Assembly (NCBI GenBank): GCA_040223695.1
Contig: JAVKFU010000020.1
Coordinates: forward strand, 124,001-188,000
Source of the DNA: Deltaproteobacteria bacterium
GTDB taxonomy: Bacteria > Desulfobacterota_D > UBA1144 > Nemesobacterales > UBA2774
DNA: 64,000 nt
Direction: 5' to 3'
In this document: positions 1,051 to 52,631 of the stretch, piece after piece
Layout: every line of letters begins with the position of its first letter
How positions within the stretch are numbered: position 1 is the first letter of the stretch
Translations under genes and position numbers: made by a program
Notes under the pieces: generated by a model
The model's database searches: none
Told to the model about the DNA's origin: nothing
The model's input: only the letters and a program-made list of their open reading frames with translations

Positions 1051-2496
1051 TTAAATCCCCGGCCCGCATTCTATGCTGTCCTGGGAAAGGCCGGGACCCA
1101 TGTTTAGCTTTTCATTCGCGTCTCTCAAAGCGGTTCTGACTCCCTCTTCTATAACGGGGTGGTAAAAAGGCATATCGAGCATATCGCATATTGTCATCTT
1201 ATTCTCGAGCGACCACGCGAGCAAATGCCCTATGTGCTCGGCCCTCGGACCGAACATCTCGGCTCCCAGGAATAATCCGCTCCCGTATTCAGCGTATATA
1301 TGGAGCAAACCCCTGTTTTTAAGCATCACCCTGCTCCGGCCCTGATTCTCGAAAGAGACCTTACCCGTAACGAAGCAAAGATTTTCCCTTTCCTTGAGCT
1401 CATTATAACCCTGTCCCGTGATAGCTATCTGGGGCTCCGTGAAAACAATCGTAAGCGGCGTCGTTCTCCGCCCCGCCCTTATATCGGGGAAGGCGGCCGC
1501 GTTCTCCCCCGCAATATGCCCCTCGTCCGAGGCTTCGTGAAGTAACGGCAGGTGGTTGTCCGCGTCCCCTGCGATGAAAACAGAGCTTTCTCCGCACTGA
1601 AGCGTAAAACGGTCGTAGAGCGGAACCCCTCTCCCGTCAAGCTCAAGACCGGTGTTTTCAAGCCCTAGATTCTTTACGTTAGGCACTCTGCCCGTGGCCG
1701 CAAGCAGGTAATCAAAACTTTCGGTACGATCCCCGCCTTCGAGGTCCCTGAACTTCACAGAAATTTTATTCCCATTCTTTTCGACGCTGTAAACCAGGGC
1801 GTCGGTATCGACATAAAATTCTTCGGCGAAGGTCTTCGCGGCGTATTTTTTTATCTCGGGATGATTTAGCGGCCCGACGAGTCCGTCTTTGCTCAGTATT
1901 ATCGTCCGAACCCCCAGACGGTGGAGCGCCTGACCCAGTTCGAGACCTATTATTCCCGCGCCGAAGACGACCGCCGATTCGGGCAGATCGTTCCAGTAAA
2001 AAATATCGTCATTTACTATCAAACGGTCTCCCAGCCCCTGAAACATGGGCAGAACCGAGGGGCTTGACCCGGTCGCGATTACAATCGACTTTGCCTCGAC
2101 GGTTGTATGGTCATCCACCTGAAGGGTGTTTCCGTCCAGAAACCGGGCACGACCCCTGATATTATATTCACCGGGGATCGACTCGACTTTATCCAGGACA
2201 AATCCGACGAAGCGGTCCCTCTCACTTCTGACCCGCTCCATAACCTTAACTCCGTCGATAGTTTTTCCCCCATTGGTGTAAATTCCGAATCCCGGCGCCT
2301 CTTCAATCGAGTGCGAGGCTTCGGCGGCGGCGATCAACAATTTACTCGGCATACACCCGATTCTCGCGCAGGTGGTCCCGTATTGTCCCCCCTCGATCAA
2401 AACCACTTTATCGGTATTTTTTTTGGCGCTGCTGTAAGCGACCATCCCGGCTGTCCCCGCGCCTATAACCGCTACATCCGCTTTTAAATTTTTCAA
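1051..2496 (-). CDS. Dihydrolipoyl dehydrogenase-like pyridine nucleotide-disulfide oxidoreductase
   Basis: FAD-dependent class I disulfide reductase, 481 residues. N-terminal FAD motif GAGTAG at 12-17; redox-active disulfide in CARIGCMPSK (Cys43, Cys48); central NAD-binding region with GAGIIGLELG; second FAD motif ending FIAGDA; C-terminal dimerisation domain with YHPVIEE, where the His-Glu pair takes the place of the usual HPT-E catalytic pair. No E1/E2 dehydrogenase-complex genes are nearby, so this is more likely a stand-alone reductase than a complex subunit. The start is a TTG (2494-2496) preceded by a good GGGAGGAGC site; no ATG gives the full FAD motif. It lies among other redox and detoxification genes. 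Confidence 0.85.
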   Translation of the reverse strand: MKNLKADVAVIGAGTAGMVAYSSAKKNTDKVVLIEGGQYGTTCARIGCMPSKLLIAAAEASHSIEEAPGFGIYTNGGKTIDGVKVMERVRSERDRFVGFVLDKVESIPGEYNIRGRARFLDGNTLQVDDHTTVEAKSIVIATGSSPSVLPMFQGLGDRLIVNDDIFYWNDLPESAVVFGAGIIGLELGQALHRLGVRTIILSKDGLVGPLNHPEIKKYAAKTFAEEFYVDTDALVYSVEKNGNKISVKFRDLEGGDRTESFDYLLAATGRVPNVKNLGLENTGLELDGRGVPLYDRFTLQCGESSVFIAGDADNHLPLLHEASDEGHIAGENAAAFPDIRAGRRTTPLTIVFTEPQIAITGQGYNELKERENLCFVTGKVSFENQGRSRVMLKNRGLLHIYAEYGSGLFLGAEMFGPRAEHIGHLLAWSLENKMTICDMLDMPFYHPVIEEGVRTALRDANEKLNMGPGLSQDSIECGPGI

Positions 2497-2557
2497 AATT
2501 GCTCCTCCCGGATTGTAAATTCAGGTATTTACAACAGACAGAGCTACGTGCGAAGAA

Positions 2558-3223
2558 TTAGACGAGAAGTTTCGACCCCCTCTTCTCGGCTTCCGATATG
2601 TCCGTTTTTCTCGACTTCGGAACATCCATACCCTTTTTCACAGCCGGACGTCTCCTCACCGTTCTCATCCATCTCCTCAGGTTCGGAAGGTCGTCTATGT
2701 CCACGCCCGCCCAGTTATGTACGGCTATCCAGGGATAGGTCGCAATATCGGCAATGGAGAAAAAGTCGCCCGCCAGGAATTCATTACCCTCAAGCCGGGT
2801 ATCAAGCACGGTATAGAGCCTCTTGGTCTCACGCTGGTAGCGACCTATGGCGTAATCGATTTTTTCTGGCGCGTACCTGTAAAAAACATGTGCCTGCCCC
2901 TGCATCGGGCCTATTGCGGACATTTGAAACATGAGCCATTGAATAACAGTCGAGCGTCCATTTATATCCTGAGGCAGGAGCTTTCCCGTTTTCTCGGCCA
3001 GGTATATCAGTATTGCGCCCGACTCGAAAAGTGTGAATCCGCCGTTATCGTGATCCACGATTGCGGGAATTCTCCCGTTGGGATTAATTTCAAGATACCA
3101 CTCCTCCTTCTGCTCCAGTTTGCTCAGATGTACATGAATTAGCTTGTACGGAAGCTCTATCTCCTCAAGCATGACAGAGACTTTCCTTCCGTTCGGCGTT
3201 CCCGATGTGTAAAGATCGATCAT
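2558..3223 (-). CDS. Glutathione S-transferase, YfcG/Ure2p-like
   Basis: 221-residue GST. The N-terminal thioredoxin-fold domain starts [14 protein letters not shown] and carries the glutathione-binding NGRIPAI (cis-Pro) and the [11 protein letters not shown] segment; the all-alpha domain has ADIATYPW, the N-capping-box region. The TPNGRKV start is characteristic of the YfcG/YghU group, whose members act as glutathione-dependent disulfide oxidoreductases. ATG at 3221-3223 with a G-rich Shine-Dalgarno 6 bases upstream. Same strand as the flanking genes, 76 bases from the hydrolase upstream. One of two GSTs in this island; the other (7760-8404) is a different subtype. Confidence 0.9.
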
Positions 3224-3299
3224 AGATGCCCCCCTTGGGATTTACTCATTGCTGACCCAGTTTTAAATAAGCTTACTCAAAGAATTTAGTTGATAAAAA

Positions 3300-3932
3300 C
3301 TATTTAAGGGATTCCTCAAGAAATGATTTTGCCGAGATTATTTCTTCATGGGTAAGGCTGTGACCTCTGTTGTGCCAGAATACTTCCACCCTGGCGCCTG
3401 AATCCGTAAAAAGCTTTGCCAGAGCCTCTGACTGCTCGGGCGCGACTATAGGGTCGTTTGTCCCGGCTGTAATGAAAATTTCCACGTGAGACAGATCAGG
3501 GAGACTTTCAGGGACGAAGGGAACCATCGGGTGAAATAAAACCGCTGCGTTGATTAAATCCGGGAACGATAACATTGCGCTTGAGGCTATGTTGGCGCCG
3601 TTTGAATATCCGGCTGCAACTAATTTCTTTTGATTTATACCGTATGCTTCGGTCGCGTTTTTGACAAATTCGGCCAGCTCGCGGGTCCTCAAACGGAGAT
3701 CCTCCATATCGAAAACGCCTTCCGCAAGCCGCCTGAAAAATCTGGGCATCCCGTTTTCCAGAACTTTTCCGCGCGGGCTCAGCACCGCTGCTCCCGGCAG
3801 CATCATTTGCGCTACCGGAATCAGGCTTTCTTCGTCGCCGCCAGTCCCGTGGAGGAGCAAAATAGTTTTTTCATACGAGGGACCTGACGGCGGGATATAT
3901 ATATAATGAAAACCCAGGTCAGGATTATCCAT
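3300..3932 (-). CDS. Alpha/beta hydrolase, MhqD-like phospholipase/carboxylesterase
   Basis: 210-residue serine hydrolase of the phospholipase/carboxylesterase family. Visible: the oxyanion region LLLHGTGGDE, the nucleophile elbow GYSNG, the acid in AGTNDPIV and the catalytic His in NRGHSLT. It begins 5 bases after the stop of the upstream VOC dioxygenase gene, has no Shine-Dalgarno of its own and is probably translationally coupled. A ring-cleaving dioxygenase next to this hydrolase reproduces the MhqO-MhqD pairing known from quinone-stress operons of Firmicutes. The role in quinone or catechol breakdown is inferred from that pairing, not from active-site specificity. Confidence 0.85.
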   Translation of the reverse strand: MDNPDLGFHYIYIPPSGPSYEKTILLLHGTGGDEESLIPVAQMMLPGAAVLSPRGKVLENGMPRFFRRLAEGVFDMEDLRLRTRELAEFVKNATEAYGINQKKLVAAGYSNGANIASSAMLSFPDLINAAVLFHPMVPFVPESLPDLSHVEIFITAGTNDPIVAPEQSEALAKLFTDSGARVEVFWHNRGHSLTHEEIISAKSFLEESLK

Positions 3933-3937
3933 GAGAT

Positions 3938-4873
3938 TTAAGCAAGCGCTGGAAGAACGCCTTCAATCTCCTTTCTCTTGTCCTCAAGCCAGTCGGGAAG
4001 CATCAGATTTTCTCCCAGTTCGTTTATGTTCTCGTCCACTGTAAATCCCGGTAGGTCTGTCGCGATTTCAAACAGCACGCCCCCGGGCTCCCTGAAATAC
4101 ACGGATTTAAAATAATTTCTGTCCAGCTGCGGGGTAACGTTGAATCCGAGTTCTATAAGCCTTTCTCTCATTTCTAGCTGCTCGGCCTCATCCGCGACCC
4201 TGAACGCTATGTGATGTACGGAGCCCCCGGCCACACTGCCGCGCTGCCCTGAAGGGAGGCATACAAGGTCAATAATATTCGCGTGCTGAGAGTGCGGGTT
4301 CCGAAACCTGAAACGGTTCATATGCTCGTCCGTTTTCTTGTAGCCGAATACCTCGGTAAGCAAACTCGCAGTGCTCTCATAGCCTTCAAGCGTCAGTGTG
4401 GCGTTGTAAAAACCCCTGACGGCGTGCTCTTCAGTGACGCCGTCTATTACCCACGGACTCACGCCGTTATCTGTCGAATCGGCAGCAAGCTCGAGTTTAA
4501 GCCCGTCGGGATCGAGGAAAACGATAACTTCTTCTCCAAACCTCTGTGAAGGATTGTTATAGGTGACGTTGTGGCTGCGGAATCTTTCCAGCCAAAAATC
4601 AACAGAGTCCTGCGAAATGCTAAAGGAAGCGGACGTCACCTGTCCCGTCCCCGCCCTCCCCCTTCTGATACCCTCCCAGGGAAAGAAGGTGAGTATAGTC
4701 CCGGGCTCTCCGCCCGCATTGCCGAAATAGAAGTGATACGTACCGGGGTCGTCGAAATTTACCGTCTTTTTTACCAGCCGCAATCCGAGCACCTTCGTAT
4801 AAAACTCGTGGTTCGTACCTGCGTTTCCCGCAATTGCCGTTATGTGATGAATTCCCTTTATCTTTCCACCCAT
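3938..4873 (-). CDS. VOC-fold ring-cleaving dioxygenase, MhqO-like
   Basis: 311-residue glyoxalase/extradiol-dioxygenase superfamily protein with two tandem VOC domains, beginning GIHHITAIAGNAGTNHEFY and repeating a metal-ligand pattern at SVHHIAFRVAD. The closing LFEIATDLPGF, with Glu as probable third ligand, is characteristic of the MhqO/YkcA group of hydroquinone-linked dioxygenases. It would use a non-haem metal to open an aromatic diol. ATG at 4871-4873 with GAGTGG upstream. It heads a two-gene unit with the hydrolase. The 163 bases upstream hold no clear operator. Family certain; substrate (hydroquinone or catechol) inferred. Confidence 0.88.
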   Translation of the reverse strand: MGGKIKGIHHITAIAGNAGTNHEFYTKVLGLRLVKKTVNFDDPGTYHFYFGNAGGEPGTILTFFPWEGIRRGRAGTGQVTSASFSISQDSVDFWLERFRSHNVTYNNPSQRFGEEVIVFLDPDGLKLELAADSTDNGVSPWVIDGVTEEHAVRGFYNATLTLEGYESTASLLTEVFGYKKTDEHMNRFRFRNPHSQHANIIDLVCLPSGQRGSVAGGSVHHIAFRVADEAEQLEMRERLIELGFNVTPQLDRNYFKSVYFREPGGVLFEIATDLPGFTVDENINELGENLMLPDWLEDKRKEIEGVLPALA

Positions 4874-20743: not shown

Positions 20744-21736
20744 ATGATCAATCCCAGGTTTATTATATTTGCTTTATTGGCGAGCTTTTTCCTGTACGTT
20801 TCATGCGGGGGCGGGTCTAAGTCCAGCGGTACCTATACCTTACCGCAAGCCCAGAGGACAGTAAACAAGGAAAATGAAGAGCTAAACAGGAAGCTGATTG
20901 AAGAGACGTTCAGCACGAATGTTTCGGATGATTATCTGATCGGCCCGGGGGACCTTTTGGATATTCAGGTGCTCGAAGCCCCGGATCTCGCCACCCAGGC
21001 CAGGGTGAGCAGTCGTAATAATATATCCTTCCCCCTTCTTGGAAAAGTGGAAATAGGCGGTCTTACCTCACAGGAGGCGGAGGAAAGAATCCAAGAGGAA
21101 TTAACGCAAAAGTATATGCACGATCCCCACGTCACAGTTTCAGTTAAGGAATATAGAAGCCAGAGAGTTGCGGTAATAGGCAGCGTAAAGAATCCGGGCA
21201 CTTACGAGCTTCTGGGAAAGGGGAATATTCTCGATGCCCTTGCTCTGGCGGGGGGGTTGAGCCCTGAGGCAAGCGAGATCGCTTACGTCACCCGAAAGAA
21301 CAGTGGCGGAGAAGAGAAATCAGTACAAATAGATCTGGACGAGCTCCTTGATGAAGGAAATACAAGCTTAAATGTGCCCATCCATATGGGTGACGTTGTT
21401 TATGTTCCCGAGGCGGGCGTTATATACGTTGACGGAGCTGTTAAGGAACCCGGAACGTTCCCTCTGGCAGAAGACATGACGATAAGCCAGGCTATCACTG
21501 CGGCCGGCGGTCTCGATAATACGGCCGAAGCCTCGGACGTAAGATTAATAAGGAATGAGGACGGCCAGGTAATTGTGACCCCTGTAGATGTAAAACAGAT
21601 AAAAGAAGGTGCGGCAGCAGATATAATATTAGAAGATCAGGATGTCGTCGTTGTCGGAAAAAATACGATAAAGAGCTTCTTTGATGCTATAAAACTGGGG
21701 TTATTCTTCCCGCCGTTCAGCGTAGGGGTACAGTAA
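20744..21736 (+). CDS. Wza-type polysaccharide export lipoprotein
   Basis: 330 residues. Lipoprotein signal with Cys21 in LYVSC. Poly_export domain at about 65-140 (DDYLIGPGDLLDIQVLE, SFPLLGKVEIGGLT), then two SLBB domains (VAVIGSVKNPGTYELLGKGN; IYVDGAVKEPGTFPLAEDMT), each followed by an ALAGGL/TAAGGL turn. This family forms the outer-membrane channel for capsule or exopolysaccharide. It sits just before the Wzc homologue, as in many Wzx/Wzy-type loci. A TATAAT at 20706-20711 may give it its own promoter, but no good -35 is present. Confidence 0.92.
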   Translation: MINPRFIIFALLASFFLYVSCGGGSKSSGTYTLPQAQRTVNKENEELNRKLIEETFSTNVSDDYLIGPGDLLDIQVLEAPDLATQARVSSRNNISFPLLGKVEIGGLTSQEAEERIQEELTQKYMHDPHVTVSVKEYRSQRVAVIGSVKNPGTYELLGKGNILDALALAGGLSPEASEIAYVTRKNSGGEEKSVQIDLDELLDEGNTSLNVPIHMGDVVYVPEAGVIYVDGAVKEPGTFPLAEDMTISQAITAAGGLDNTAEASDVRLIRNEDGQVIVTPVDVKQIKEGAAADIILEDQDVVVVGKNTIKSFFDAIKLGLFFPPFSVGVQ

Positions 21737-21765: not shown

Positions 21766-24129
21766 ATGGAAAATAACGGCAAAGATAATATCAATGGAGA
21801 GAATAATGGAAGGGATCTGGTTCCGGAAAACGAGAAGAGATCCTTAAAGGGCTATTATCCGCAGGCGCCCGAAATATTAAACGCGTACCCCATAGATGAC
21901 GAATCAAGTATCCGCAGATACCTCGATGTAGTCTTAAGACGCAAAAAAATAATAATTACTTTTTTCGTCATAGTTTTATTTACAACCCTGATAGGAACAC
22001 TCTTATCCGAGCCCGTCTATAAAGCGACGGCAAAATTAGAAATATCTCTCGAAAACCCCAAAGTTGTGAATTTCGATCAGGTTGTCGAGCTCGAGACCGA
22101 ATCAGCAGAATTCTATGAAACACAATATCTGCTTCTCAAGAGTAACTCCCTTGCAAAAAAGGTAGTAGAAAAGCTCAATCTGCAGGAGCATCCTGAATTT
22201 AACTCGGAAAAAAAGAATCCGAGCATATTGTCGCGCATCACATCGGGATTCACGAATCTAATCGGCAATTCCATAAGCGGTGTAAAGAACCTGATAGTCA
22301 GGCCTTCTGATACCGACGATACTGAATTTGACGAAGAATTCCAGAGAAAGAACAAGGAGAACAATCTTGCCAGGGCGTTCGTAGGGGGTCTTGAAATATC
22401 CCCCGTAGGCAATTCGCGCCTGGTGGATGTAAGTTATGAATCTCATGACCGAAGGCTCGCGGCGGACGCAGTAAACACGTTGGCGGACTCGTTTATCGAG
22501 TGGCTTCTCAACAGGAAACTGGATGCAACCAAAAAGGGCAGGGATTTTTTAAGGAAGCAGATCGAACAAGCCCAGATCAATCTTGAGACATCCGAAGAAA
22601 AACTCAATGAATTCGCTAAAAGCAATGACATAGTTTCACTCGATGAAAAAATGAATATTACGTATCATACATTCTCCGAGCTCAACGACGCGCTGGCGAA
22701 GTCGGAAACGCAAAGATTGGAAAAAGAATCCCTCTACAAGCATGTACTGAACGGCAATATTGAATCACTTCCTATGGTTTTGAACGATTCCTATATCCAG
22801 GACCTTAAATCCGAACACGCCAGGGCTAAATCCGAATACAGTCAGTTAAGCGCTACTTTCAAAGCGGGATATCCGAAAGTAAAGGAAATGGGGGCCAGGG
22901 TCGGGGAGCTGCAAAAAAAGATAGACGAGGCGGAAAATAGCATCGCCGCTTCAATAAAATCCGACTATGAAGCCGCCATGAAAAAAGAGGAAACACTCAG
23001 GGAAAGCTACGAAAAGCAAAAGACGCTCGCTTCGGCGCTTAATGATAAATCAATTCAGTACAACATCCTCCAGCGTGAGGTGGATTCAAACGAAACCATA
23101 TACAACACACTGCTGCAGAGACTAAAGGAAACAGAAGTTTCATCGGCAATTAAAGCGAGCAATATTCAGATTGTGGACTATGCGGCGGTACCCCTCTTCC
23201 CATACAAGCCGAACGTAACGCTGAACTTGCTGTTTGCCTGCATAATAGGCCTGGGCGGAGGCGTATTCCTGGCATTCTTTATGGAATACTTTGATAATAC
23301 GATAAAAACAGCCGAAGATGTGCGTGACAAGTTAAAATACCCCGTTCTGGGGGGCGTCTTTGAATCCAAAGAGGCGGATAGTCTCGCCTCGCCTGTCGAG
23401 AAATCGTTCCTGCTCGACCCCAGATCTCACATTGCCGAGGCATTCAGGACAATAAGGACTTCTCTTCTGCTCTCGGTTCCCGGAAAGCCCCCACGTACTA
23501 TTCTGATTACCAGCTGCTTCCCGGCAGAGGGAAAAACCACCGTGTCGATAAATCTCGCTTCTTCTTTCGCTCAGGCCGGAAGCAAGGTTCTGCTGCTCGA
23601 AGCCGACCTGCGTCGTCCGAGGATCGGAACCGTGCTCGGAAACAACGGTAACGGATTAAGCAGTTATTTAACCGGCAATGCGAATCTGGCGGATGTTATT
23701 TCCCACGGCGAGACAGCCAATCTATTCGTGTTACCCGTGGGGCCCGTGCCTATTAACCCCGCAGAGCTTCTGGGTTCGGATATTATGAGAAATCTGATGG
23801 ATGAATTAAAAGAAGAATACGACTATATAATAGTTGACGGTCCCCCTGCTCTCGGGTTTGTCGATGCTCATATAATTTCAAATATCGTGGACGGCGTGGC
23901 TGTGGTTGTAAGGGCCGGGAAGACACCCCGAAATTCGATTAGAGAGCTTATAGACAGGTTGTGGAACCTTAAGGCCAATTTCCTCGGAGTAATAGTGAAC
24001 GGAATCGAGTTGAATCAAAAAAGCTATTATTATCAATCCTACAACTATTATTACGGGGACGGCGAGGAGCAGAAAAAACTTACTACAGCAAAATCCGATG
24101 AGGACAACCATCCTGGCACATCCGGATAA
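21766..24129 (+). CDS. Wzc-type chain-length determinant and tyrosine autokinase
   Basis: 787 residues. An N-terminal Wzz domain with membrane helix at about 60-82, a long periplasmic coiled coil (about 250-450), a second helix at about 482-506 (LNLLFACIIGLGGGVFLAFF), then a cytosolic BY-kinase: Walker A PAEGKTTVS, Walker A' LLLEADLRRPRIG, Walker B DYIIVDGPPALG. The C-terminal tail has the autophosphorylated Tyr cluster (KSYYYQSYNYYYGDGE). It pairs with the Wza homologue 30 bases upstream to polymerise and export a high-molecular-weight polysaccharide. Confidence 0.95.
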   Translation: MENNGKDNINGENNGRDLVPENEKRSLKGYYPQAPEILNAYPIDDESSIRRYLDVVLRRKKIIITFFVIVLFTTLIGTLLSEPVYKATAKLEISLENPKVVNFDQVVELETESAEFYETQYLLLKSNSLAKKVVEKLNLQEHPEFNSEKKNPSILSRITSGFTNLIGNSISGVKNLIVRPSDTDDTEFDEEFQRKNKENNLARAFVGGLEISPVGNSRLVDVSYESHDRRLAADAVNTLADSFIEWLLNRKLDATKKGRDFLRKQIEQAQINLETSEEKLNEFAKSNDIVSLDEKMNITYHTFSELNDALAKSETQRLEKESLYKHVLNGNIESLPMVLNDSYIQDLKSEHARAKSEYSQLSATFKAGYPKVKEMGARVGELQKKIDEAENSIAASIKSDYEAAMKKEETLRESYEKQKTLASALNDKSIQYNILQREVDSNETIYNTLLQRLKETEVSSAIKASNIQIVDYAAVPLFPYKPNVTLNLLFACIIGLGGGVFLAFFMEYFDNTIKTAEDVRDKLKYPVLGGVFESKEADSLASPVEKSFLLDPRSHIAEAFRTIRTSLLLSVPGKPPRTILITSCFPAEGKTTVSINLASSFAQAGSKVLLLEADLRRPRIGTVLGNNGNGLSSYLTGNANLADVISHGETANLFVLPVGPVPINPAELLGSDIMRNLMDELKEEYDYIIVDGPPALGFVDAHIISNIVDGVAVVVRAGKTPRNSIRELIDRLWNLKANFLGVIVNGIELNQKSYYYQSYNYYYGDGEEQKKLTTAKSDEDNHPGTSG

Positions 24130-26917: not shown

Positions 26918-27979
26918 TCAAGCTCTAACGAATTTCTTATCGTCAGCTCTTGTTCTCGCCTCCGCCTGTCTGTAGAGACAATCTCTCAAACCCGATTCTG
27001 AAATGTAACCCATATTGATCAAAATCTTCCCGATTTTGCCGCCTTTCCCCTTTTGGTACTCTAAAGCTTTTTCCAGCTGTTCATTAGTAATCACATTTGC
27101 GGCCAGCATTATCTCACCAATAAAATTGGATTTTTGATAGTTATTGCTAAACCAGTTAGCGCTTGAATTCACTGTAACCTGCATGTTCAGGAAATCCTTC
27201 AGCTTTTCTTTCGTGATATAACCCTTTTCAATCAATATCTCCCCGATTTTGCCGCCCCATTTTTCCTGATACAGAAGTGCTTCCCTAAGCTGTTCTTCGC
27301 TTATTACTCCCGCTTCCAAAATCACCTGTCCTATTAGTTTATCTATCCTCTTTTCCTCGCCTTCCCAACTAAATGTGAAAGTGAACCAGAATGAAGCAAT
27401 TATGAGTTTCAGATCCAGCAAAAAACTTTGATTGCAAATATAGAGTATGTCGTAGCGAAGCTTATTTTTCGGATGTGTATTGTAGTGTCCGTAGACCTGA
27501 GCTATACCGGTCAATCCGGGTTTAACTCGCAGCCTGTTCTCAAATCCCGGTATTACTTTACTTATTTCATCGAAAAGCTCGGGCCTTTCTGCGCGCGGAC
27601 CGACAAAACTCATTTGACCGGCTAAAATATTGAATAGCTGGGGTAACTCATCCAGCTTTGTTTTTCTTAGAAAGCTCCCTACCCTGGTTATTCTGTAGTC
27701 TTTTTTGTAGGCCCATACAGGACCCGTGTTTACTTCCGCGTCCTTTATCATGGATCGGAACTTATAGATTTTGAATTTTTTACTGCCCTCGCCTAATCTC
27801 GTCTGTGCGAAAATAATCGGCCTTCCGTCTTCAAGGTAAATTGCGATTGCAACCGCAACCCATATCGGCAAAGAAATAATCAAACCCAGTAAAGACAGCA
27901 AGAAGTCAAAAGGTCTTTTTAAAAAAGGGCCTTTTACAGGGTTTAAATCAACTTCTGCCTGACTATAGTTATCATCCAT
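26918..27979 (-). CDS. Initiating sugar transferase fused to tandem MshEN-like (c-di-GMP-type) modules
   Basis: 353 residues. Residues 20-200 are a polyprenyl-phosphate sugar-1-phosphate transferase: one helix (FLLSLLGLIISLPIWVAVAIA), KFRSM, GSFLRKTKLDELPQL, MSFVGPRAERPE, VKPGLTGIAQVYG and KLRYDILYI. Normal members stop there. Here about 145 residues follow, with two copies of a repeat: IGQVILEAGVISEEQLREAL..GGKIGEILIEKGYITKEKLKDFL (from about 215) and IGEIMLAANVITNEQLEKAL..GGKIGKILINMGYISESGLRDCL (from about 286). This is the paired pattern of the GspE/MshE N-terminal (MshEN) domain, several of which bind c-di-GMP. It reads against the flanking plus-strand genes and has its own sigma-54-type promoter. 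Ligand binding is inferred. Confidence 0.85.
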   Translation of the reverse strand: MDDNYSQAEVDLNPVKGPFLKRPFDFLLSLLGLIISLPIWVAVAIAIYLEDGRPIIFAQTRLGEGSKKFKIYKFRSMIKDAEVNTGPVWAYKKDYRITRVGSFLRKTKLDELPQLFNILAGQMSFVGPRAERPELFDEISKVIPGFENRLRVKPGLTGIAQVYGHYNTHPKNKLRYDILYICNQSFLLDLKLIIASFWFTFTFSWEGEEKRIDKLIGQVILEAGVISEEQLREALLYQEKWGGKIGEILIEKGYITKEKLKDFLNMQVTVNSSANWFSNNYQKSNFIGEIMLAANVITNEQLEKALEYQKGKGGKIGKILINMGYISESGLRDCLYRQAEARTRADDKKFVRA

Positions 27980-28639: not shown

Positions 28640-29725
28640 TTAGAAGTTATGGCTTAAGGAGCTATGGCTGGCGTTGTTTATTTGTAGTGATTTATCCTGG
28701 TCCGCGGGCAGTGTGATTATAAACTTCGTTCCTACTCCTACTTCACTCTCACAAATAATCTCACCATTATGCTCGTTTATTATATGCTTTGAGATTGATA
28801 GTCCGAGGCCCGTTCCCTTACCCACAGGTTTAGTAGTGAAAAATGGGTCAAATATTTTATCTATTTTTTCTTTCGGTATACCGTCACCGTTATCCTCAAA
28901 CGTGATTTCGATGTTGTCACCCTTGTGCTTTATATAAATTTTGACGTCTTTTCCATCGCTCCTCTCCAGCGCGTCTATCGCATTTGACAGCAGGTTTGAA
29001 AATACTTGCATGATATGTGTGGGCTTAATCCAGATTTCCAATTTGTCATCATCTATTTGCTCTATAATGTTTATGTTGTGTTTCACAATACGAAAGTTAA
29101 TTAACTCCAGAACCTTGTCCAGAATCTCGGAGCAACATACTCTTCGAAGCTCATTAGTTTGATTCCCGTTATAGGAAAAAATCAGAAGATTTTCTATTAT
29201 ACTGATGCAACGACTTGTTGCTTCTTCAGCAATTTGAAGATATTTATGTCTTTTGTCATCTTCAGAAGTTACTTTAAGACTCATTTCTATAAAGTTAATA
29301 ATTGCCGTTAGCGGATTGTTTAATTCATGAGCGACACCAGCAACCATAATTCCAATCGCGCTCATCTTCTCCGATTGAATCAGCATTTGGGTTGTTTGTT
29401 TTAAATGCTCTTTTTTCTCTTTTAATTCTCTGTTTTTATTAGAAAGTGATTTTTCCGTCCTGATTCGCTCTTGGATCTCTCTTTTCAGGGATTGATTAGC
29501 TCTCGTTAATTCGAGAGTTCGTTCTTTAACCAGATCTTCCAAATTTTCGTTAATCTCGATTAATTCCTTTGAGCTTAGCTCGAGTGAACGCTCCAGCATT
29601 TTACGGTCTTCATCAGCCTGGCGATAGGTTTCTCTAACCGTTTCAACAAATACTCTCAAATCCTCCGGAATTGAGGCCGAATCGCCGAAGTGTTTTTTTA
29701 TCTGACGTTCAAACAGTTTAAGCAT
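28640..29725 (-). CDS. Sensor histidine kinase without own sensory domain, partner of FIST protein
   Basis: 361 residues, no membrane helix. N-terminal LKLFERQIKKHFG and a long coiled coil to about residue 115, then HisKA with phospho-acceptor His133 in AHELNNPLTAIINF, and HATPase with N-box (LLSNAIDALERS), G1 (DNGDGIPKEKIDKIFDPFF) and G2 (GKGTGLGLSISKHI). The H-box and catalytic domain are of the NtrB-like class that usually pairs with sigma-54 activators. It starts 8 bases after the FIST gene on the same strand, so the FIST protein is the probable sensor. No response regulator lies nearby. Confidence 0.92.
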   Translation of the reverse strand: MLKLFERQIKKHFGDSASIPEDLRVFVETVRETYRQADEDRKMLERSLELSSKELIEINENLEDLVKERTLELTRANQSLKREIQERIRTEKSLSNKNRELKEKKEHLKQTTQMLIQSEKMSAIGIMVAGVAHELNNPLTAIINFIEMSLKVTSEDDKRHKYLQIAEEATSRCISIIENLLIFSYNGNQTNELRRVCCSEILDKVLELINFRIVKHNINIIEQIDDDKLEIWIKPTHIMQVFSNLLSNAIDALERSDGKDVKIYIKHKGDNIEITFEDNGDGIPKEKIDKIFDPFFTTKPVGKGTGLGLSISKHIINEHNGEIICESEVGVGTKFIITLPADQDKSLQINNASHSSLSHNF

Positions 29726-29733
29726 TTATTTTT

Positions 29734-30873
29734 TTATCTCTCCGATAGTGTAGTAATTGTCATGGTTTGATTATGTAACTCACACTTGCAGGAAGAATTA
29801 AGCGGCGATATTTCGCCGTAAGAATAAAATCCGGAGAGCACGGTGTTTTCTCCGAGTACGTTACGCACTCCCTCTACCTCTTCATCTATCCTTTGCTTAA
29901 GAACCATTTTCCTCCCGACGCAGCTTATCAAAAGAGCCAGGTCAGGCGTCACAGATCCTACTGACTCATAACTTGTCTGAGCCGCCGTGGACGCGCCGCC
30001 TATAAGCCTGTCGAAATTTGCCTTCATCAAACGCGCATACGTACCTTCAGGCACATCACCCGCAAACGTCATGCTATCGTCAGTTTCACTTATACCGAGT
30101 ATTGTGCGAACAACCCCTATCTCACTATCCTTACTTCGCACTTCTAACGGAAAGAGTAATGCGCTCGACGGGAGACCTTCAGCGTGGTCTCCCAAATATC
30201 TTTTATAAAGCTCCAATGCCGATTTATTATCCACCTCATACAGGATGTTTCCGTTTGATTTCGTGATTAACCTCTCCGGGCCGAACGGATCCCAGCCGCC
30301 CAGAGAACCGAAACCTACTTTTAGACCGCTCCCGTATAGTCCCAGAACCGCAATCGTATTACTTTCAGCTTTACCGTCCCACACGACAACTGTCTCCTTA
30401 AAATTCAACCCGTCTCCCGACAGACCCCCCGTTATCGACACCCCCTCGGGTATGTGTTTCGAGATTCCCCTTACAAGTTCACTTCCGTTAACTTTTACGC
30501 CTTCGGATAATACGAGTACGTGAACCAGTCCTTCTTTTTTAAGAGACCTGCCTAAACATTCGCCCGCTTGAAAACTGTCCTTTGTTTTACTTAGCCTGAT
30601 GCAGGTTCCGTCAAATGTCGAATCTTTAAAATTTAAAGCAGTCATCACAAGGGAATTGTCCGATACCTCTGTGCCGAAAATCTCTCCGGCTGTTGAACAT
30701 CCGAAGATATGGGAATCGGGATAAGTCTCCCTCACAAGATCAACATTTTTTTTATCTTTAAGCAATGAAGTGCTTCCGAATAAAAGAACCAGTTGCGCGG
30801 AATGGCCTAACTCTCCGGGCGGTACCGGCTCCCATTTTTTTCCTTCAGTCCATCTGGCTTGTTCAACTCGCAT
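29734..30873 (-). CDS. FIST sensory-domain protein
   Basis: 379 residues with FIST N and C domains and nothing else. Motifs: LVLLFGSTSLL, YPDSHIFGCSTAGEI, VSITGGLSGDGL (FIST_N), then NKSALELYKRYLGD and RLIGGASTAAQTSYE, LLISCVGRKMVLKQRIDEE (FIST_C). FIST domains are thought to sense small ligands such as amino acids and are normally fused to kinases, GGDEF or chemoreceptor domains. Here it is a separate cytosolic protein co-transcribed with a kinase lacking a sensor. ATG at 30871-30873, GGGGA 8 bases before. A sigma-54-type promoter lies about 120 bases upstream. Confidence 0.9.
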   Translation of the reverse strand: MRVEQARWTEGKKWEPVPPGELGHSAQLVLLFGSTSLLKDKKNVDLVRETYPDSHIFGCSTAGEIFGTEVSDNSLVMTALNFKDSTFDGTCIRLSKTKDSFQAGECLGRSLKKEGLVHVLVLSEGVKVNGSELVRGISKHIPEGVSITGGLSGDGLNFKETVVVWDGKAESNTIAVLGLYGSGLKVGFGSLGGWDPFGPERLITKSNGNILYEVDNKSALELYKRYLGDHAEGLPSSALLFPLEVRSKDSEIGVVRTILGISETDDSMTFAGDVPEGTYARLMKANFDRLIGGASTAAQTSYESVGSVTPDLALLISCVGRKMVLKQRIDEEVEGVRNVLGENTVLSGFYSYGEISPLNSSCKCELHNQTMTITTLSER

Positions 30874-31597: not shown

Positions 31598-32479
31598 ATT
31601 AATAATTCAACTGACGCAGAGTCAATAGAAAATTCCGACAACAAATCAGATTCAGAACAGAGAAAGCCCTTTGCTGTAAGAGAGGCTCAAACCGGCATAT
31701 CTTTGAGGCTGGGGGAGCTCTGGGAATACCATGAACTGATTTATTTTTTAGTATGGCGCGACCTCAAAGTGCGGTACAAACAAACTGCGCTTGGGGTAGC
31801 TTGGGCGATTCTCCAACCCTTTTTAACCATGGTGGTATTTACGATATTCTTCGGCAATCTCGCGAAGGTTCCCTCAGACGGAATACCCTACCCTATATTT
31901 TCGTTTGCCGGACTTTTGCCATGGCAGCTCTTTGCCAACGCTCTGACAAATTCAAGCAACAGTCTCGTAAACAACAGTAATCTGATAACAAAAGTCTACT
32001 TTCCGCGATTGATCATGCCTTTATCCTCGGTAGTCGGCGGACTGGTAGATTTCTTTTTAGCGTTTCTAGTGTTGATAGGAATGATGTTTTACTATGGGAT
32101 AACACCCACGTACGGAGTATTGATGCTGCCTCTCTTCATATTACTGGCGATTGCGACGTCTTTTGCGGTGAGCCTCTGGCTGTCCGCCCTGAATGTGCAA
32201 TACAGGGATGTACGGTACACAATTCCTTTCCTGACGCAATTCTGGCTCTTCATCACGCCCATCGCGTACCCGAGCAGCCTGGTTCCCGAAAAATGGCATT
32301 TTATCTACGGACTCAATCCGATGGCGGGAGTGGTTGAGGGTTTCCGCTGGGCACTGCTGGGAAAATCAAGCGAAACAGGCCCCTTGTTAATAATATCGGT
32401 AATTATCGTTATATTGCTGCTCGTTGGCGGTCTGATCTATTTCAGACACATGGAAAAAACGTTTGCGGATGTGGTTTAA
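31598..32479 (+). CDS. ABC-2 polysaccharide export permease (Wzm-like), probable AUU start
   Basis: Six-helix ABC-2 permease: the amphipathic ELWEYHELIYFLVWRDLKVRYKQT, then helices, with the family KVYFPRLIMPLSSVVG and GLNPMAGVVEGFRWALLG. The first ATG/GTG/TTG codon in frame is a TTG at 31703, with no Shine-Dalgarno, and it cuts into the conserved leader. The frame is open further upstream and codes a plausible polar N-terminus (REAQTGISLRLGELW). ATT at 31598-31600 has GGGAG 8 bases before it and follows a promoter, giving 293 residues. The AUU start is inferred; a base error of an ATG is an alternative. It exports glycans with the Wzt protein 2 bases downstream. Confidence 0.85.
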   Translation: MNNSTDAESIENSDNKSDSEQRKPFAVREAQTGISLRLGELWEYHELIYFLVWRDLKVRYKQTALGVAWAILQPFLTMVVFTIFFGNLAKVPSDGIPYPIFSFAGLLPWQLFANALTNSSNSLVNNSNLITKVYFPRLIMPLSSVVGGLVDFFLAFLVLIGMMFYYGITPTYGVLMLPLFILLAIATSFAVSLWLSALNVQYRDVRYTIPFLTQFWLFITPIAYPSSLVPEKWHFIYGLNPMAGVVEGFRWALLGKSSETGPLLIISVIIVILLLVGGLIYFRHMEKTFADVV

Positions 32480-32481
32480 AA

Positions 32482-33756
32482 ATGAATAACACGGCAATCA
32501 GAATTAACGGCATAGGCAAAGAGTACAAGATAGGGAAAAAGCAAGAATACAGGACTATCCGCGATACCATATCGGACATTTTTATGAGAAACCTGAACAG
32601 GCTGCCTTTTTATTCAAACAAAGAAACAGACGACGCGCCCGGCGGTTCCTCCAAATCTTTCTGGTCACTCAGAAATATCTCTTTTAATGTCGGGGACGGA
32701 GAGATTATCGGAATTATCGGGCGCAACGGAGCAGGAAAAAGCACGCTTCTTAAAATAATTTCCGGCATAACCGATCCGTCCGAAGGCAGAATCGAGATTT
32801 TCGGCCGTATCGGTTCCCTTTTAGAAGTCGGCACCGGCTTCCATCAGGAGTTGACGGGCAGGGAAAATATATATCTAAACGGCGCAATACTCGGCATGAA
32901 AAGACTTGAAATAGACCGTAAGTTCGATGAAATTGTAGCTTTTTCGGATATAGAGGAATTTATAGATACCCCTGTTAAACGCTACTCGAGCGGTATGCGG
33001 GTCCGTTTGGGCTTCTCAGTCGCGGCTCATCTGGAGCCCGAAATCCTTCTCATAGACGAAGTGCTTGCGGTAGGTGACGCCGCCTTTCAGAAAAAATGCC
33101 TGGGCAAGCTGGACAACGTAGCAACCTCAGAGGGCAGGACCGTCCTGTTCGTAAGCCACGACATGACCGCTATTCTCTCTCTGTGCCATAAAGCCGTATT
33201 ACTGGAAAACGGGCAATTGAGCTTTGAAGGCTCGACTGACAAGGTGGTGCAGCAGTATCTGCAAAACATGAGTTCCACTTACGAGACCCCCCTTGACCAA
33301 AGGGAAGACCGCGGCGGGAATCAGAGTATAATCGTAACTTCGCTTAAGATCGAGAACGCCGAGGCCGGAAAACCTATTCGACCCGGCTCTAAATTGGCAA
33401 TAGAGATCGGATACCGGAGCAGGGACAAAATACTTTATCCGCATTTTTTGGTAAAAATAAGAGACTTCAGGACACGCGCGACTATACTACGGCTCGATAG
33501 CGATATGACGAATGGACTGCCCGAGGTACTTCAGCCCGAGGGTGTTGTTAAATGTTTAACCGACGAAATATATATGACACCCGGGCGGTGCACCGTGGAT
33601 ATTGAAATAAAGAAAGGGATGGTAACAGCTGACAGAATCGAATATGCGGGATATTTCGACATCGAAACCGAAGACCTGTTCGGGTCCGGCAAAATTCCGT
33701 CACGTAATCAGGCCATGTATCTGGCGAAATATAAATGGTCGATAGAAAACGATTAG
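32482..33756 (+). CDS. ABC polysaccharide export ATPase (Wzt-like) with carbohydrate-binding tail
   Basis: 424 residues. ATPase at about 1-250: Walker A GRNGAGKST, the Q-loop region LEVGTGFHQELTGRENIYL typical of O-antigen exporters, signature YSSGM, Walker B ILLIDEVLAVGD, switch His in FVSHD. The C-terminal 160 residues form a Wzt_C-like beta-sandwich (SIIVTSLKIENAEAGKPIRPGSKL, TPGRCTVDIEIKKGM) that in the family recognises the polymer end. Starts 2 bases after the permease stop. Confidence 0.95.
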   Translation: MNNTAIRINGIGKEYKIGKKQEYRTIRDTISDIFMRNLNRLPFYSNKETDDAPGGSSKSFWSLRNISFNVGDGEIIGIIGRNGAGKSTLLKIISGITDPSEGRIEIFGRIGSLLEVGTGFHQELTGRENIYLNGAILGMKRLEIDRKFDEIVAFSDIEEFIDTPVKRYSSGMRVRLGFSVAAHLEPEILLIDEVLAVGDAAFQKKCLGKLDNVATSEGRTVLFVSHDMTAILSLCHKAVLLENGQLSFEGSTDKVVQQYLQNMSSTYETPLDQREDRGGNQSIIVTSLKIENAEAGKPIRPGSKLAIEIGYRSRDKILYPHFLVKIRDFRTRATILRLDSDMTNGLPEVLQPEGVVKCLTDEIYMTPGRCTVDIEIKKGMVTADRIEYAGYFDIETEDLFGSGKIPSRNQAMYLAKYKWSIEND

Positions 33757-46257: not shown

Positions 46258-47226
46258 ATGAACACAGAAACCCGGAATATAATTCACACTTATATATCAC
46301 TTTTACTGCGCTGGTTCAATATATTATTGGGACGGAGTTACTACCATGTTTCTCAGCCTATAGGGAGATTTATAAGCAAGGACGAGATAGCAGGGTATTA
46401 TAATGATTTTACCAAAAAAGCTGACTGGAAGGGAATATCAGATAATGAGGGAATACCGCTTAATATACTAAGCAACGGCATCAAAGTATACTTTCCTATC
46501 ACTATAGCACAGATGGCTCTCGGAAACTATGATTTATGGTTGGAAAGCAAAGAATCGGAAAATAAAAGAAAATTCCTAACTCTTGCAAACTGGCTTAAAG
46601 AAAATCAGGACAGCAAAGGCGGTTGGGAGAACCCGTGGGAATATCTCAGGCCATCTTCAATATCCAATTACTCTGCGATGGCTCAGGGAGAAGGAATATC
46701 GACGTTGGTAAGGGCATATGCATTGACAAAAGATATATCATTTCTGAATCAAGCTGAAAAGGCATACAATCTGATGATGGCTCCCATCGAGAAAGGAGGG
46801 TGTACATTTTTTATCGATGAAGATATCTATCTCGAAGAATACCCTGAGATCCCCAGAAGCACAGTACTAAACGGATGGATATACGCCTTGTTCGGGGTTT
46901 ATGACTTCAAAATAGCCAGCAAAGACAGAGACGTCAAAAGCGTATATGAGAAAAGCCTAGAGACAGTAGAAAAAAGCCTGAAGTTTTTTGATTCCGGTTA
47001 TTGGACATATTATGACCTTCAAAACAATCTAGCGTCTCATTATTACCATGCAGTCCATATTTCCTTGTTAGATGCTTTATATATTCTTTCTGATACAAAA
47101 ACCTTTGATCATTTTTCAAATAAATGGAAAAATTACGAAAGGAATTTTTTCAACAAAAGCAAGGCACTCACCGCAAAAGCTTTACAGAGACTGAAAAACC
47201 CGATGAACATAACTATAACTAAATGA
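46258..47226 (+). CDS. D-glucuronyl C5-epimerase family protein
   Basis: 322 residues. Matches the C-terminal catalytic region of D-glucuronyl C5-epimerases: GIKVYFPITIAQMALGNYD, WEYLRPSSISNYSAMAQGEGIS, AYALTKDISFLNQAEKAY, STVLNGWIYALFGVYDF and ASHYYHAVHISLLDALY. The (alpha/alpha)-barrel enzyme converts glucuronic to iduronic acid within a polymer in heparan-type synthesis. No signal peptide is seen, so it would act in the cytosol on a lipid-linked chain. Homology is good at motif level; whether epimerase activity is kept cannot be told. Confidence 0.78.
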   Translation: MNTETRNIIHTYISLLLRWFNILLGRSYYHVSQPIGRFISKDEIAGYYNDFTKKADWKGISDNEGIPLNILSNGIKVYFPITIAQMALGNYDLWLESKESENKRKFLTLANWLKENQDSKGGWENPWEYLRPSSISNYSAMAQGEGISTLVRAYALTKDISFLNQAEKAYNLMMAPIEKGGCTFFIDEDIYLEEYPEIPRSTVLNGWIYALFGVYDFKIASKDRDVKSVYEKSLETVEKSLKFFDSGYWTYYDLQNNLASHYYHAVHISLLDALYILSDTKTFDHFSNKWKNYERNFFNKSKALTAKALQRLKNPMNITITK

Positions 47227-49228: not shown

Positions 49229-50449
49229 ATGACCGAAAAGAAGATTGCTTACGTTACTTCTAGTTTTCCCATTTTAACAGAAACCTTTATAATCCGAGAG
49301 ATTGAAGAAGTCAAACATAAAGGTATTGATATCGAGATATTTTCCCTAAAAAATGTAAAACAGAACAAGAATATTCCCGGCTGGGGTCAAGAGCTTATAT
49401 CTAATACACACTATCTCCCCTTTCTATTCTCAGTTGAGATATTAAAAGCGGCTCTTTTTTATATCACAAATAAACCTCTCACTATAATAAAACTTATCTC
49501 TGAAATAATCAGAACCCATACTAAGGAACCTGACATGTTATTTAAAACCCTTGCTGTATTTCCCAAAGCCCTCTCTATTTCACTCATTGTGAAAGACTTG
49601 AAGATAAAAAAAATTCATGCACATTGGGCAACTATACCAACAACAGTAGCCTGGATAGTCAGCAAGCTAAATGAAATCGATTTTACCTTTACAGCACATG
49701 CTTGGGATATATTCAAATATGACACGATGCTCGAAGACAAAATCGCGGAAGCAAGGAAAGTAATTACCTGCACAAATTTTAACAAGAAATATCTAGAGGA
49801 AAAATTTGCGGATATAAGCCCCGATAAAATCGTGACTATTTATCATGGTATGGATTTACATCAATTCAAATCCGACAAAAAAAAAGCAAATCGTATTTTC
49901 ACTATATTGAGTATTGGAAGGCTTGCGGAAAAGAAAGGATTCCACATCCTTCTCCAAGCCTGCAACATATTGAAAAAAAAGCAAATTGGGTTCACTTGCC
50001 AGATTGTGTATGTAAGTGGAGAGTTTGAGAAAGAAATATTTGAGCTATATAACTATCTGGAGCTAGCAGGTTATGTGCAATTTATCCCTGAAATGACACA
50101 GGAGAAATTAATTGACTACTATAACAATGCAGATTGTTTCATATTACCCTGTATTGTTACTGATAGCGGAGACAGGGACGGCATACCCAATGTAATTTTA
50201 GAGGCTCTGGCTATGGAGTTGCCCGTAGTAACGACACCCATCTCGGGAATACCTGAAGTTATAAAAGACGGGGAAACAGGCCTTCTGGTTGAGCCCGAAA
50301 ATGCAGAAGAGCTGGCGGCGGCTATCGCGCGGGTGTATTCGGATCCAAATCTGAGAGAGAAACTGGGAAAAGCGGGAAGAGATTTCGTAAATCAGCATTT
50401 CGAAATCTCTTCCAATGTTGAGCGTCTATTAAAAGTAATATTTAGTTGA
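49229..50449 (+). CDS. GT-B glycosyltransferase, last plus-strand gene of the locus
   Basis: 406 residues. Starts KIAYVTSSFPILTETFIIREI; IHAHWATIPTTVAWIVS, FTAHAWDIFKYDT, LSIGRLAEKKGFHILLQA, ILPCIVTDSGDRDGIPNVILEALAMELPVV. The DGIPNV-E motif marks the WcaC/AmsK/colanic-type GT4. Its last 8 bases overlap the convergent beta-helix gene. Confidence 0.92.
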   Translation: MTEKKIAYVTSSFPILTETFIIREIEEVKHKGIDIEIFSLKNVKQNKNIPGWGQELISNTHYLPFLFSVEILKAALFYITNKPLTIIKLISEIIRTHTKEPDMLFKTLAVFPKALSISLIVKDLKIKKIHAHWATIPTTVAWIVSKLNEIDFTFTAHAWDIFKYDTMLEDKIAEARKVITCTNFNKKYLEEKFADISPDKIVTIYHGMDLHQFKSDKKKANRIFTILSIGRLAEKKGFHILLQACNILKKKQIGFTCQIVYVSGEFEKEIFELYNYLELAGYVQFIPEMTQEKLIDYYNNADCFILPCIVTDSGDRDGIPNVILEALAMELPVVTTPISGIPEVIKDGETGLLVEPENAEELAAAIARVYSDPNLREKLGKAGRDFVNQHFEISSNVERLLKVIFS

Positions 50450-52352
50450 CGTATTCGTCCATGCCTATATCACAGCCGGCATCGAGTAATCTGTCCTGTC
50501 CGTCAAAATCAATACCTGCACAGCTGTTTTTCTCCCCCCGGTCTCTTGCCGAAGAGTCAGCCTTTATATGATAAATACCGGTCGATGTATTAGTGAACCC
50601 GGGGTCGGCGTTGAATAAGCTGTTTTTATCCCAGCTCGTAACGGACTTATATCTTGAACCAAAGTCACTCCTCCAGCCGTCCTCCCATTTCCAGGAATCA
50701 GATCTCACATTCCATAAGTTGTAATCAAATGTATTCTTACTCGAACCGGAGTCAAAGGTCTCTAGCGCGGCCACATCCTCCAGCGTGCTATAGAATATGT
50801 TGTTCTTAAATATATTGTCCGTACTATTTAATATCCCTACAAAAGTGTGGCTTGTATCGTCAGTTTGAGGATATTGCTCAAGAACGAACGTATTGTTTCT
50901 GATTACGCTTCTTTTAACGTTGTACCATAGCACCATACCCCAAGAATTGTTCTCAATTATATTGTTTTCTACAACCATATTTTGCATCTCGCTGTTGCAT
51001 CCGCTGCCGTTCCACTGAATCCCTCTGCCCCCGTGATCACTAAGAGTATTGCCCCTTATCGTTATATCAGACATCCCGGTGCAGAGAAAATCACTCATAT
51101 ATATCCCGTGACAGTGCTTGGGACTCTCGCCTCCCCAATCACTGCTATAGCACGCGCCCTCCTCCGTACCGTTAAACTCTATCACATTAGCATCGATGAA
51201 CACATCGTCTGTAGATACAATTAGAATACCCTGATACCTGTTTTTATGTATCCAATTGTTTCGTATGGTGTTGTGCCCTTTATATAGCTTTACACCGTCC
51301 CAGCCGTACCTGATTTCAAATCCTTCCAGTATTATCCACTCCGCATTGAACTCAACTCTCGGCGTACCGCTTGACGGACAACATTCCAGGGGATAACTAC
51401 CTCCCCCGGGATCTATCACAGGTCTGTGACTCGGATAATTGACAAGGGCAATAGGTTCTTCCCTCGTTCCGTTCACAGTAAAGTTGACCCTTTCATTATA
51501 TACACCGTCCTTGACCTGTATTGTGTCTCCAGGGCGGGAATTATCGAGCGCCGATTGTATAGTCCGATAGTCTCCGCTACCGTTCTTATCCACGATCAAC
51601 ACGCGTTTGTCCCGAGGTTCAAGCGGTGCATCCGATACGCCCGAATCTATAGTTCCTCCAGTCGAAGGAGGGATATCACCCGGCTCGGGCTCCTCACTAG
51701 GAGGGGGAACCGCCCGGGGTTTGTCAAAATCAACTACCAGCTTGGGGCCGTTTCTCCTGTTTTCCTTGCTGTTAAGAGTTACATCTCCGGAATTCGCAAT
51801 GACATACACACCATTATTGGTTTCAACACCGTCTACCCAATCCTGAACCAACTGCGTTAAATCCAACTCAGAGTATTGCCGGGTTCTTGAGATCTCTACA
51901 TTATCCTCTTCAAAGGAGGCAATATCGGGTCTTCTGCTCCAGGATATTGATTCATCCCACTTATTCATAGCCGCAAACACAGAAATATCCGTCGCAGATC
52001 TGCTTCTGGAAGCTACATATAGAGATAACTTGGCATTCGTAATTTTCGATCCGCGGGGTATATCCGATATATCGAACTCAAGCAGCCCAGCTCTATTTTT
52101 AGAATCACCTTGCTTCAAACGAATCGTCGATTTTCGGCCGTATTTATTATTGGGTCTCTGTTCATCAATATAAGTATCAGAAACAGCAGAGTAGCCACCG
52201 GGCTCCTGGTTTGTCAAGCTCCCTCCCCTGGCGGGCCTGGAACCGCGGCCGAATGATATCCTCATCGCCTCCGCAGGAATAGCGCTTAGAGCCGCTGCAA
52301 CCAGTAACAATAGCAGTATGTAAGCTTGGATCGAGTTGAATTTGTACTTCAT
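50442..52352 (-). CDS. Secreted DNRLRE + parallel beta-helix protein under riboswitch control
   Basis: 636 residues. Signal peptide (AYILLLLLVAAALSAIPAEA), then a DNRLRE/CBM96-like domain at about 50-200 (SAVSDTYIDEQRPNNKYG, AGLLEFDISDIPRGSKIT, YSELDLTQLVQDWVDG), a Pro-rich linker, and a right-handed beta-helix (NGSGDYRTIQSALDNSRPGD, YNERVNFTVNGTREEP, then repeated NTIRNN/IENN rungs). It may be a polysaccharide-binding, lyase or epimerase-like matrix protein; no catalytic residues were identified. Start ATG at 52350-52352 with GGAGG 7 bases upstream is preferred over 52370. A GEMM-I riboswitch and sigma-54-type promoter precede it. Confidence 0.88.
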   Translation of the reverse strand: MKYKFNSIQAYILLLLLVAAALSAIPAEAMRISFGRGSRPARGGSLTNQEPGGYSAVSDTYIDEQRPNNKYGRKSTIRLKQGDSKNRAGLLEFDISDIPRGSKITNAKLSLYVASRSRSATDISVFAAMNKWDESISWSRRPDIASFEEDNVEISRTRQYSELDLTQLVQDWVDGVETNNGVYVIANSGDVTLNSKENRRNGPKLVVDFDKPRAVPPPSEEPEPGDIPPSTGGTIDSGVSDAPLEPRDKRVLIVDKNGSGDYRTIQSALDNSRPGDTIQVKDGVYNERVNFTVNGTREEPIALVNYPSHRPVIDPGGGSYPLECCPSSGTPRVEFNAEWIILEGFEIRYGWDGVKLYKGHNTIRNNWIHKNRYQGILIVSTDDVFIDANVIEFNGTEEGACYSSDWGGESPKHCHGIYMSDFLCTGMSDITIRGNTLSDHGGRGIQWNGSGCNSEMQNMVVENNIIENNSWGMVLWYNVKRSVIRNNTFVLEQYPQTDDTSHTFVGILNSTDNIFKNNIFYSTLEDVAALETFDSGSSKNTFDYNLWNVRSDSWKWEDGWRSDFGSRYKSVTSWDKNSLFNADPGFTNTSTGIYHIKADSSARDRGEKNSCAGIDFDGQDRLLDAGCDIGMDEYVN

Positions 52353-52354
52353 TT

Positions 52355-52400
52355 GAATGCCTCCTCTCATGGTTCTCCATCCAGCGAGCGGGGAGCATTC
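52355..52400 (-). promoter_or_regulatory. Shine-Dalgarno-masking hairpin downstream of the riboswitch
   Basis: In the mRNA GAAUGCUCC (52392-52400) can pair with GGAGGCAUUC (52355-52364), six plus three base pairs around one bulge. This buries the GGAGG site of the beta-helix gene. Together with the upstream aptamer this suggests that c-di-GMP controls translation rather than termination. The pairing is visible; the switch mechanism is inferred. Confidence 0.5.
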
Positions 52401-52476
52401 TTTTCGACCACGGGTTCAACTAAAAGTTAGGTTGAATCAGGAAGGAACAAAATATTGCGATTTTCTCTTCCTATTT

Positions 52477-52563
52477 CGGCAACCCGGCCACCGTATGCAC
52501 CTAAATTTACTCGGCACTTAGGTCGAAGGCTTTGCGTCCCACCCTTTCGGATGGTTTGCCTTT
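52477..52563 (-). ncRNA. GEMM-I cyclic di-GMP riboswitch aptamer
   Basis: Minus-strand sequence follows the GEMM-I consensus almost base for base: GGCAAACC, a GAAA tetraloop hairpin (AUCC-GAAA-GGGU), GGGACGCAAAGCC, then GACCUAAG with the second arm and the closing GGCCGGGUUGCCG. The G immediately before CAAACC (G20 of the V. cholerae Vc2 aptamer) and the first C in GCCG (C92) that contact the ligand are present, as is the intercalating A before AGCC. It lies about 58 bases after the predicted sigma-54 start and 124 bases before the ATG of the beta-helix protein. Confidence 0.92.
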
Positions 52564-52631
52564 TTCGATTAGGACACGTCCCAATCAATTAAGCTAAAAA
52601 CCAATAAAAAATAATATTTACGTCAATATAA

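Follow-up and report, generated by a model that had tools for sequence, protein, structure and literature searches.

An uncultured Candidatus Dadabacteria genome encodes a polysaccharide-initiating enzyme in which a small monotopic phosphoglycosyl transferase (PGT) is followed by a C-terminal tail of two MshEN_N modules predicted to bind c-di-GMP. A relative carries the same tail on a non-homologous initiating enzyme at the same place in the same EPS gene cluster, which suggests that c-di-GMP gates the first step of polymer synthesis directly. In the absence of binding or activity data, c-di-GMP binding, its coupling to the transferase and activation rather than inhibition are inferred. The analysis was carried out on a 64,000-nucleotide stretch (hereafter the window; GCA_040223695.1, contig JAVKFU010000020.1, positions 124,001 to 188,000), and the features discussed are collected in Table 1.

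Table 1. Features of the fusion gene and of the surrounding region, in window coordinates.
Position	Strand	Feature	Supporting evidence
26918..27979	-	PGT-(MshEN_N)2 fusion gene, ATG start, 353 aa	ORF translation; PF02397 and NF053729 matches
27365..27937	-	Small monotopic PGT domain (aa 15-205), Bac_transf	PF02397 at aa 21-200, E 1.3e-62, 210.9 bits (cut-off 27); PglC/WbaP by sequence and by fold
27647..27652	-	Asp110-Glu111 catalytic dyad codons (KLDELPQL)	D110 and E111 invariant in 22 PGTs; Asp-Glu dyad of monoPGTs described in PMC10942596
27179..27337	-	MshEN_N module 1 (aa 215-267), motifs LIGQVILEAGVISEEQLREALLYQ and KIGEILIEKGYITKEKLKDFLNMQ	NF053729; 11/11 consensus features in both motifs; 10 of 12 contact positions invariant in five tails
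26966..27124	-	MshEN_N module 2 (aa 286-338), motifs FIGEIMLAANVITNEQLEKALEYQ (degenerate at positions 1 and 10) and KIGKILINMGYISESGLRDCLYRQ	NF053729; 9/11 and 11/11 consensus features; 7 of 12 contact positions invariant
20744..21736	+	Wza-type polysaccharide export protein	PF02563, SLBB
21766..24129	+	Wzc-type chain-length determinant / tyrosine autokinase	Wzz, GNVR, AAA_31; TIGR01007
25484..26875	+	Wzy/O-antigen-ligase-like membrane protein, convergent neighbor of the fusion gene	PF04932; syntenic in relatives
28640..30873	-	FIST sensor and histidine kinase genes
31703..33756	+	Wzm/Wzt-type ABC transporter pair (31703-32479, 32482-33756)	PF01061, PF00005, Wzt_C; syntenic in relatives
46258..47226		D-glucuronyl C5-epimerase-like gene, hinting at a uronic-acid polymer
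50442..52370	-	Putative secreted CBM96 + right-handed beta-helix protein, just downstream of the riboswitch	Orthologue behind a c-di-GMP-I riboswitch in a relative (G022)
52475..52570	-	c-di-GMP-I riboswitch aptamer	RF01051, 73.2 bits (gathering 35), E 1.2e-12

Domain organization of the fusion protein

The original prediction, that an initiating sugar transferase carries about 145 additional residues made of two MshEN-like c-di-GMP modules, was confirmed. The catalytic domain is most similar among solved structures to the small monotopic PGT PglC (phmmer E 1.2e-34) and the large PGT WbaP, and besides the catalytic dyad the conserved membrane-helix proline (P38) was nearly invariant among the 22 aligned sequences. 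In the tail, the NCBIfam model NF053729 for the MshE-related c-di-GMP-binding domain (53 positions) matched twice, together scoring 123 bits against a cut-off of 38, and a phmmer search of the PDB with the tail identified Thermus thermophilus PilF, Vibrio cholerae MshE and Myxococcus xanthus PilB. Weak Pfam matches of the tail to the fumarase-C C-terminus, DUF4388, EF-hand and VpsT receiver families were rejected, as they reached only about 14-30 bits.

Two points of the original prediction required correction. Each module is a full MshEN_N composed of two motifs, so that the tail holds two predicted c-di-GMP sites. Additionally, the Pfam MshEN model (PF05157) does not match the tail, but this model covers the segment after the motif domain, as seen in a relative in which the motif domain spans aa 9-61 and PF05157 matches 63-153. 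Its absence therefore means only that the C-terminal subdomain is missing, and isolated MshEN_N still binds c-di-GMP without it, with reported values of 0.35 uM for MshE (PMC5013675) and 54 nM for PilF 159-221 (PMC11731258).

Conservation of the c-di-GMP contact residues

MshEN binds c-di-GMP through two 24-residue motifs separated by a 5-residue spacer, 53 residues in all (PMC5013675). Both modules have exactly this layout, with motifs starting at aa 215 and 244 and at aa 286 and 315, 29 residues apart within each module. Scored against the extended consensus beginning (R/K/L)LG, three of the four motifs fit perfectly, and none of 20,000 shuffles of the tail contained four windows with 9 or more of the 11 features. 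Module 1 retains its contact residues apart from a conservative Leu-to-Ile change at position 2 of both motifs. Module 2 is less certain, as its first motif has Phe at position 1 and Asn in place of the loop Gly, which is replaced by Glu or Lys in two relatives, whereas its remaining positions are kept. Position 1 of the motifs is Leu/Phe and Lys instead of Arg. Work on PilF shows that such replacements do not abolish binding, as wild-type GSPII-B (Lys, Leu) has a KD of 6 nM and K167L of 2 nM, and a hydrophobic residue at this position was proposed as a predictor of very high affinity (PMC11731258). Across five tails, 17 of 24 contact positions were invariant compared to 22 of 115 other positions (Fisher p 1.7e-6), although some of these residues also build the helical core and their invariance could in part reflect the fold.

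Predicted structure

AlphaFold2 without templates predicted the PGT fold (pLDDT mostly above 90 in its first half) followed by two four-helix modules (pLDDT mostly 75-90) joined by a loose linker at residues 266-284; linkers were of low confidence and no ligand was modeled. A Foldseek search of the PDB placed PglC first (E 1.7e-12) and c-di-GMP–bound MshE next, at 0.8 A over 54 columns (prob 1.00). The tail alone had the c-di-GMP–bound MshE structure 5htl as its best match, with PilF GSPII-B close behind. Overlays on 5htl were at 0.7-0.8 A over 54 columns, with E-values of only 0.03-0.1 owing to the short length of the domain. In the model, the last PGT helix (186-202) and helix alpha-1 of module 1 (210-222) are separated by a loop of about 7 residues. 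The first turn of alpha-1 is broken upon ligand binding in MshE and PilF (PMC5013675, PMC11731258), and we infer that binding here would shift the C-terminal helix of the PGT, its membrane pose or its oligomeric state, and thereby switch activity.

Distribution of the fusion and difference in the catalytic head

The nearest named relatives are Candidatus Dadabacteria metagenome-assembled genomes and the thermophile HRbin37. Within 58 Dadabacteria genomes, the two-module tail was found on an initiating enzyme in five (the genome of the window and the genomes designated G007, G008, G034 and G002), and one module was found on the HRbin37-type PGT (G018). The fused PGTs form one clade with support of 99/91 across several genera, and the C-terminal fusion most simply arose once, some time ago. 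The tail is nevertheless patchy, being absent in most Dadabacteria genomes. A further PGT in the order, from genome G028, is a single ORF (L044 15939-17351) with a weak MshEN-like stretch at its N-terminus, a VanZ-like membrane part and a monotopic PGT of a different clade.

To identify fused PGTs elsewhere, 396 Nitrospirota and 396 Acidobacteriota genomes were searched with the tail profile and 395 Desulfobacterota genomes with the fusion profile. No further fused PGT was found in these about 1,190 genomes, although the surveys were thresholded and sampled, the Acidobacteriota search had no positive control, and the phylum names follow the titles of the records behind the center genomes. An apparent extension in genome G688 (L176) was a separate FAD-type ORF, and a Hebobacteria hit (L081) extending to residue 331 was spurious, as a stop follows the PGT and the downstream ORF is unrelated. 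Tandem tails in Nitrospirota belong to other proteins. Nine of 396 genomes (L149, L164-L172) encode proteins of about 360-420 aa with three MshEN modules followed by a hydrophobic stretch and an apparently exported domain, and in L074 such a gene lies near a PGT and a VanZ-like gene. Among plasmid records, 523 had a PGT match, none covering 80% of the fusion.

In G002, which belongs to the same family, the EPS locus is syntenic gene by gene with the window (Wza-, Wzc-, TPR-, Wzy-, Wzm-, Wzt-like genes and glycosyltransferases at 44-76% identity). The gene in the place of the PGT fusion encodes a 494-aa protein composed of a polytopic PGT of the WecA type (PF00953, 122 bits; TIGR02380, 212 bits, below its cut-off) followed by the same two-module tail, 55% identical to that of the window. 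Monotopic and polytopic PGTs are unrelated in fold and perform the same step. A sensor kept while the catalytic head differs is what one expects if the tail serves the step and not the particular enzyme; this comparison rests on one genome, but the gene lies inside a 153-kb contig. In G022 the syntenic locus has a third solution, an untailed PGT from another clade, and six-frame translation did not reveal a tail split off by a stop. The FIST and histidine kinase genes next to the fusion gene are absent beside the gene in G002 and were not considered part of the system.

Proposed function and alternative explanations

On the basis of these observations, the gene most likely encodes a c-di-GMP–gated initiating enzyme for an exopolysaccharide (probability roughly 0.7), in which each module, module 1 most surely, is inferred to bind one c-di-GMP and to control transfer of the first sugar-phosphate to undecaprenyl phosphate. 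By analogy with NfrB, and with less certainty, c-di-GMP most likely activates the enzyme, so that undecaprenyl phosphate is spent on this polymer only in the sessile state. The comparative data strongly support the original suggestion that the tail controls the committed step. It is also somewhat more likely than not that the tail is a portable switch for the undecaprenyl-phosphate commitment step, gating both monotopic (Bac_transf) and polytopic (WecA-type) initiating PGTs in Dadabacteria.

A docking role, in which the tail holds the PGT against another membrane protein of the EPS machine as the N domains of GspE-type ATPases may do and c-di-GMP plays no part, appears unlikely. MshEN-fold domains can lose c-di-GMP binding, as in XpsE (PMC5013675), and the same tail on two unrelated enzymes at one locus would also fit a shared docking partner. 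However, the residues lost in XpsE (G11, L29, G40, L54, L58 and Q61 in MshE numbering) are all kept in both modules, and the cluster has its own c-di-GMP riboswitch. It is likewise doubtful, though nothing in the sequence fixes the sign of the effect, that bound c-di-GMP acts as a brake or sets where the enzyme sits. Loss of c-di-GMP binding in PilF impairs twitching and adhesion, a positional or assembly effect (PMC11731258), whereas known c-di-GMP–controlled polymer synthases, including the MshEN-bearing NfrB, are activated (PMC8669469). All genomes concerned appear to be metagenome-assembled, but an assembly or annotation artefact such as a chimeric contig, frameshift or missed stop is refuted by the same in-frame fusion in other genomes of different genera with 57-72% identical heads and 43-65% identical tails, with no stop inside in five genomes.

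Comparison with known systems

Among the closest known systems is Escherichia coli NfrB, a membrane glycosyltransferase for an exopolysaccharide that carries a C-terminal MshEN and is activated by c-di-GMP with a KD of 1 uM (PMC8669469, PMC8669472). NfrB has a processive family 2 head in a synthase-dependent pathway and a single MshEN with its C-terminal subdomain, and only the tail of the protein described here hits the NCBIfam NfrB model, at 43 bits against a cut-off of 1170. MshE and PilF GSPII-B share the 53-residue two-motif domain (0.7-0.9 A over about 52-54 aligned columns), and GSPII-B also has Lys/Leu in place of Arg, but in these proteins the domain sits at the N-terminus of pilus ATPases. 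Among small monotopic PGTs with the same catalytic core, Campylobacter PglC consists of the catalytic domain alone and Staphylococcus aureus CapM is regulated by Tyr phosphorylation, without a sensor tail (PMC12802240, PMC10942596). In M. xanthus, the initiating large PGT EpsZ is under post-translational control by EpsW, a separate phosphorylated response regulator, through dimerization and without c-di-GMP (PMC12802240). The DUF of Salmonella enterica WbaP is an unrelated accessory domain of large PGTs that senses the product UMP, not a second messenger, and modulates activity (PMC10942596).

Undecaprenyl phosphate is scarce and shared by all surface-polymer pathways, and how its use is controlled at the initiating PGT is an open question (PMC12802240, PMC10942596). 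c-di-GMP is known to act directly on synthase-type polymer machines, and a PGT with its own c-di-GMP modules would put Wzy- or ABC-type polymers under the same messenger at their first step. Apart from NfrB, we found no paper joining MshEN with a sugar transferase or PGT and none describing c-di-GMP control of an initiating PGT; Wang et al. (PMC5013675) state that MshEN can be fused to a glycosyltransferase but name no PGT in the main text, and an unlabeled example in their supplementary tables cannot be excluded.

c-di-GMP signaling in the genome

The genome encodes six GGDEF proteins, and of the five whose motif was read, four have GG[DE]EF and one has SGDEF. It also contains three proteins over the Pfam MshEN cut-off, a PilZ protein and six c-di-GMP-I riboswitches. 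One of these riboswitches lies within the window, where the CBM96/beta-helix gene behind it closes the EPS cluster. In G022 the orthologue (53% identity) also follows a c-di-GMP-I riboswitch, and another riboswitch in that cluster precedes a UDP-glucose/GDP-mannose dehydrogenase. Thus, c-di-GMP very probably regulates this EPS cluster at the RNA level too. A c-di-GMP-I riboswitch at G000:C9:60726-60834 (L215 1226-1334) was found upstream of a PilB-type ATPase that itself carries an MshEN domain (ORF at L215 1465-3249), predicting control of one gene by the same messenger at the RNA and protein level. Finally, a c-di-GMP-I riboswitch at L217 4199-4291 lies upstream of a gene (1327-4092, minus strand) for a PilZ + class I aminotransferase (8-amino-7-oxononanoate-synthase-like) + GNAT fusion protein, an odd pairing of a c-di-GMP domain with a metabolic enzyme.
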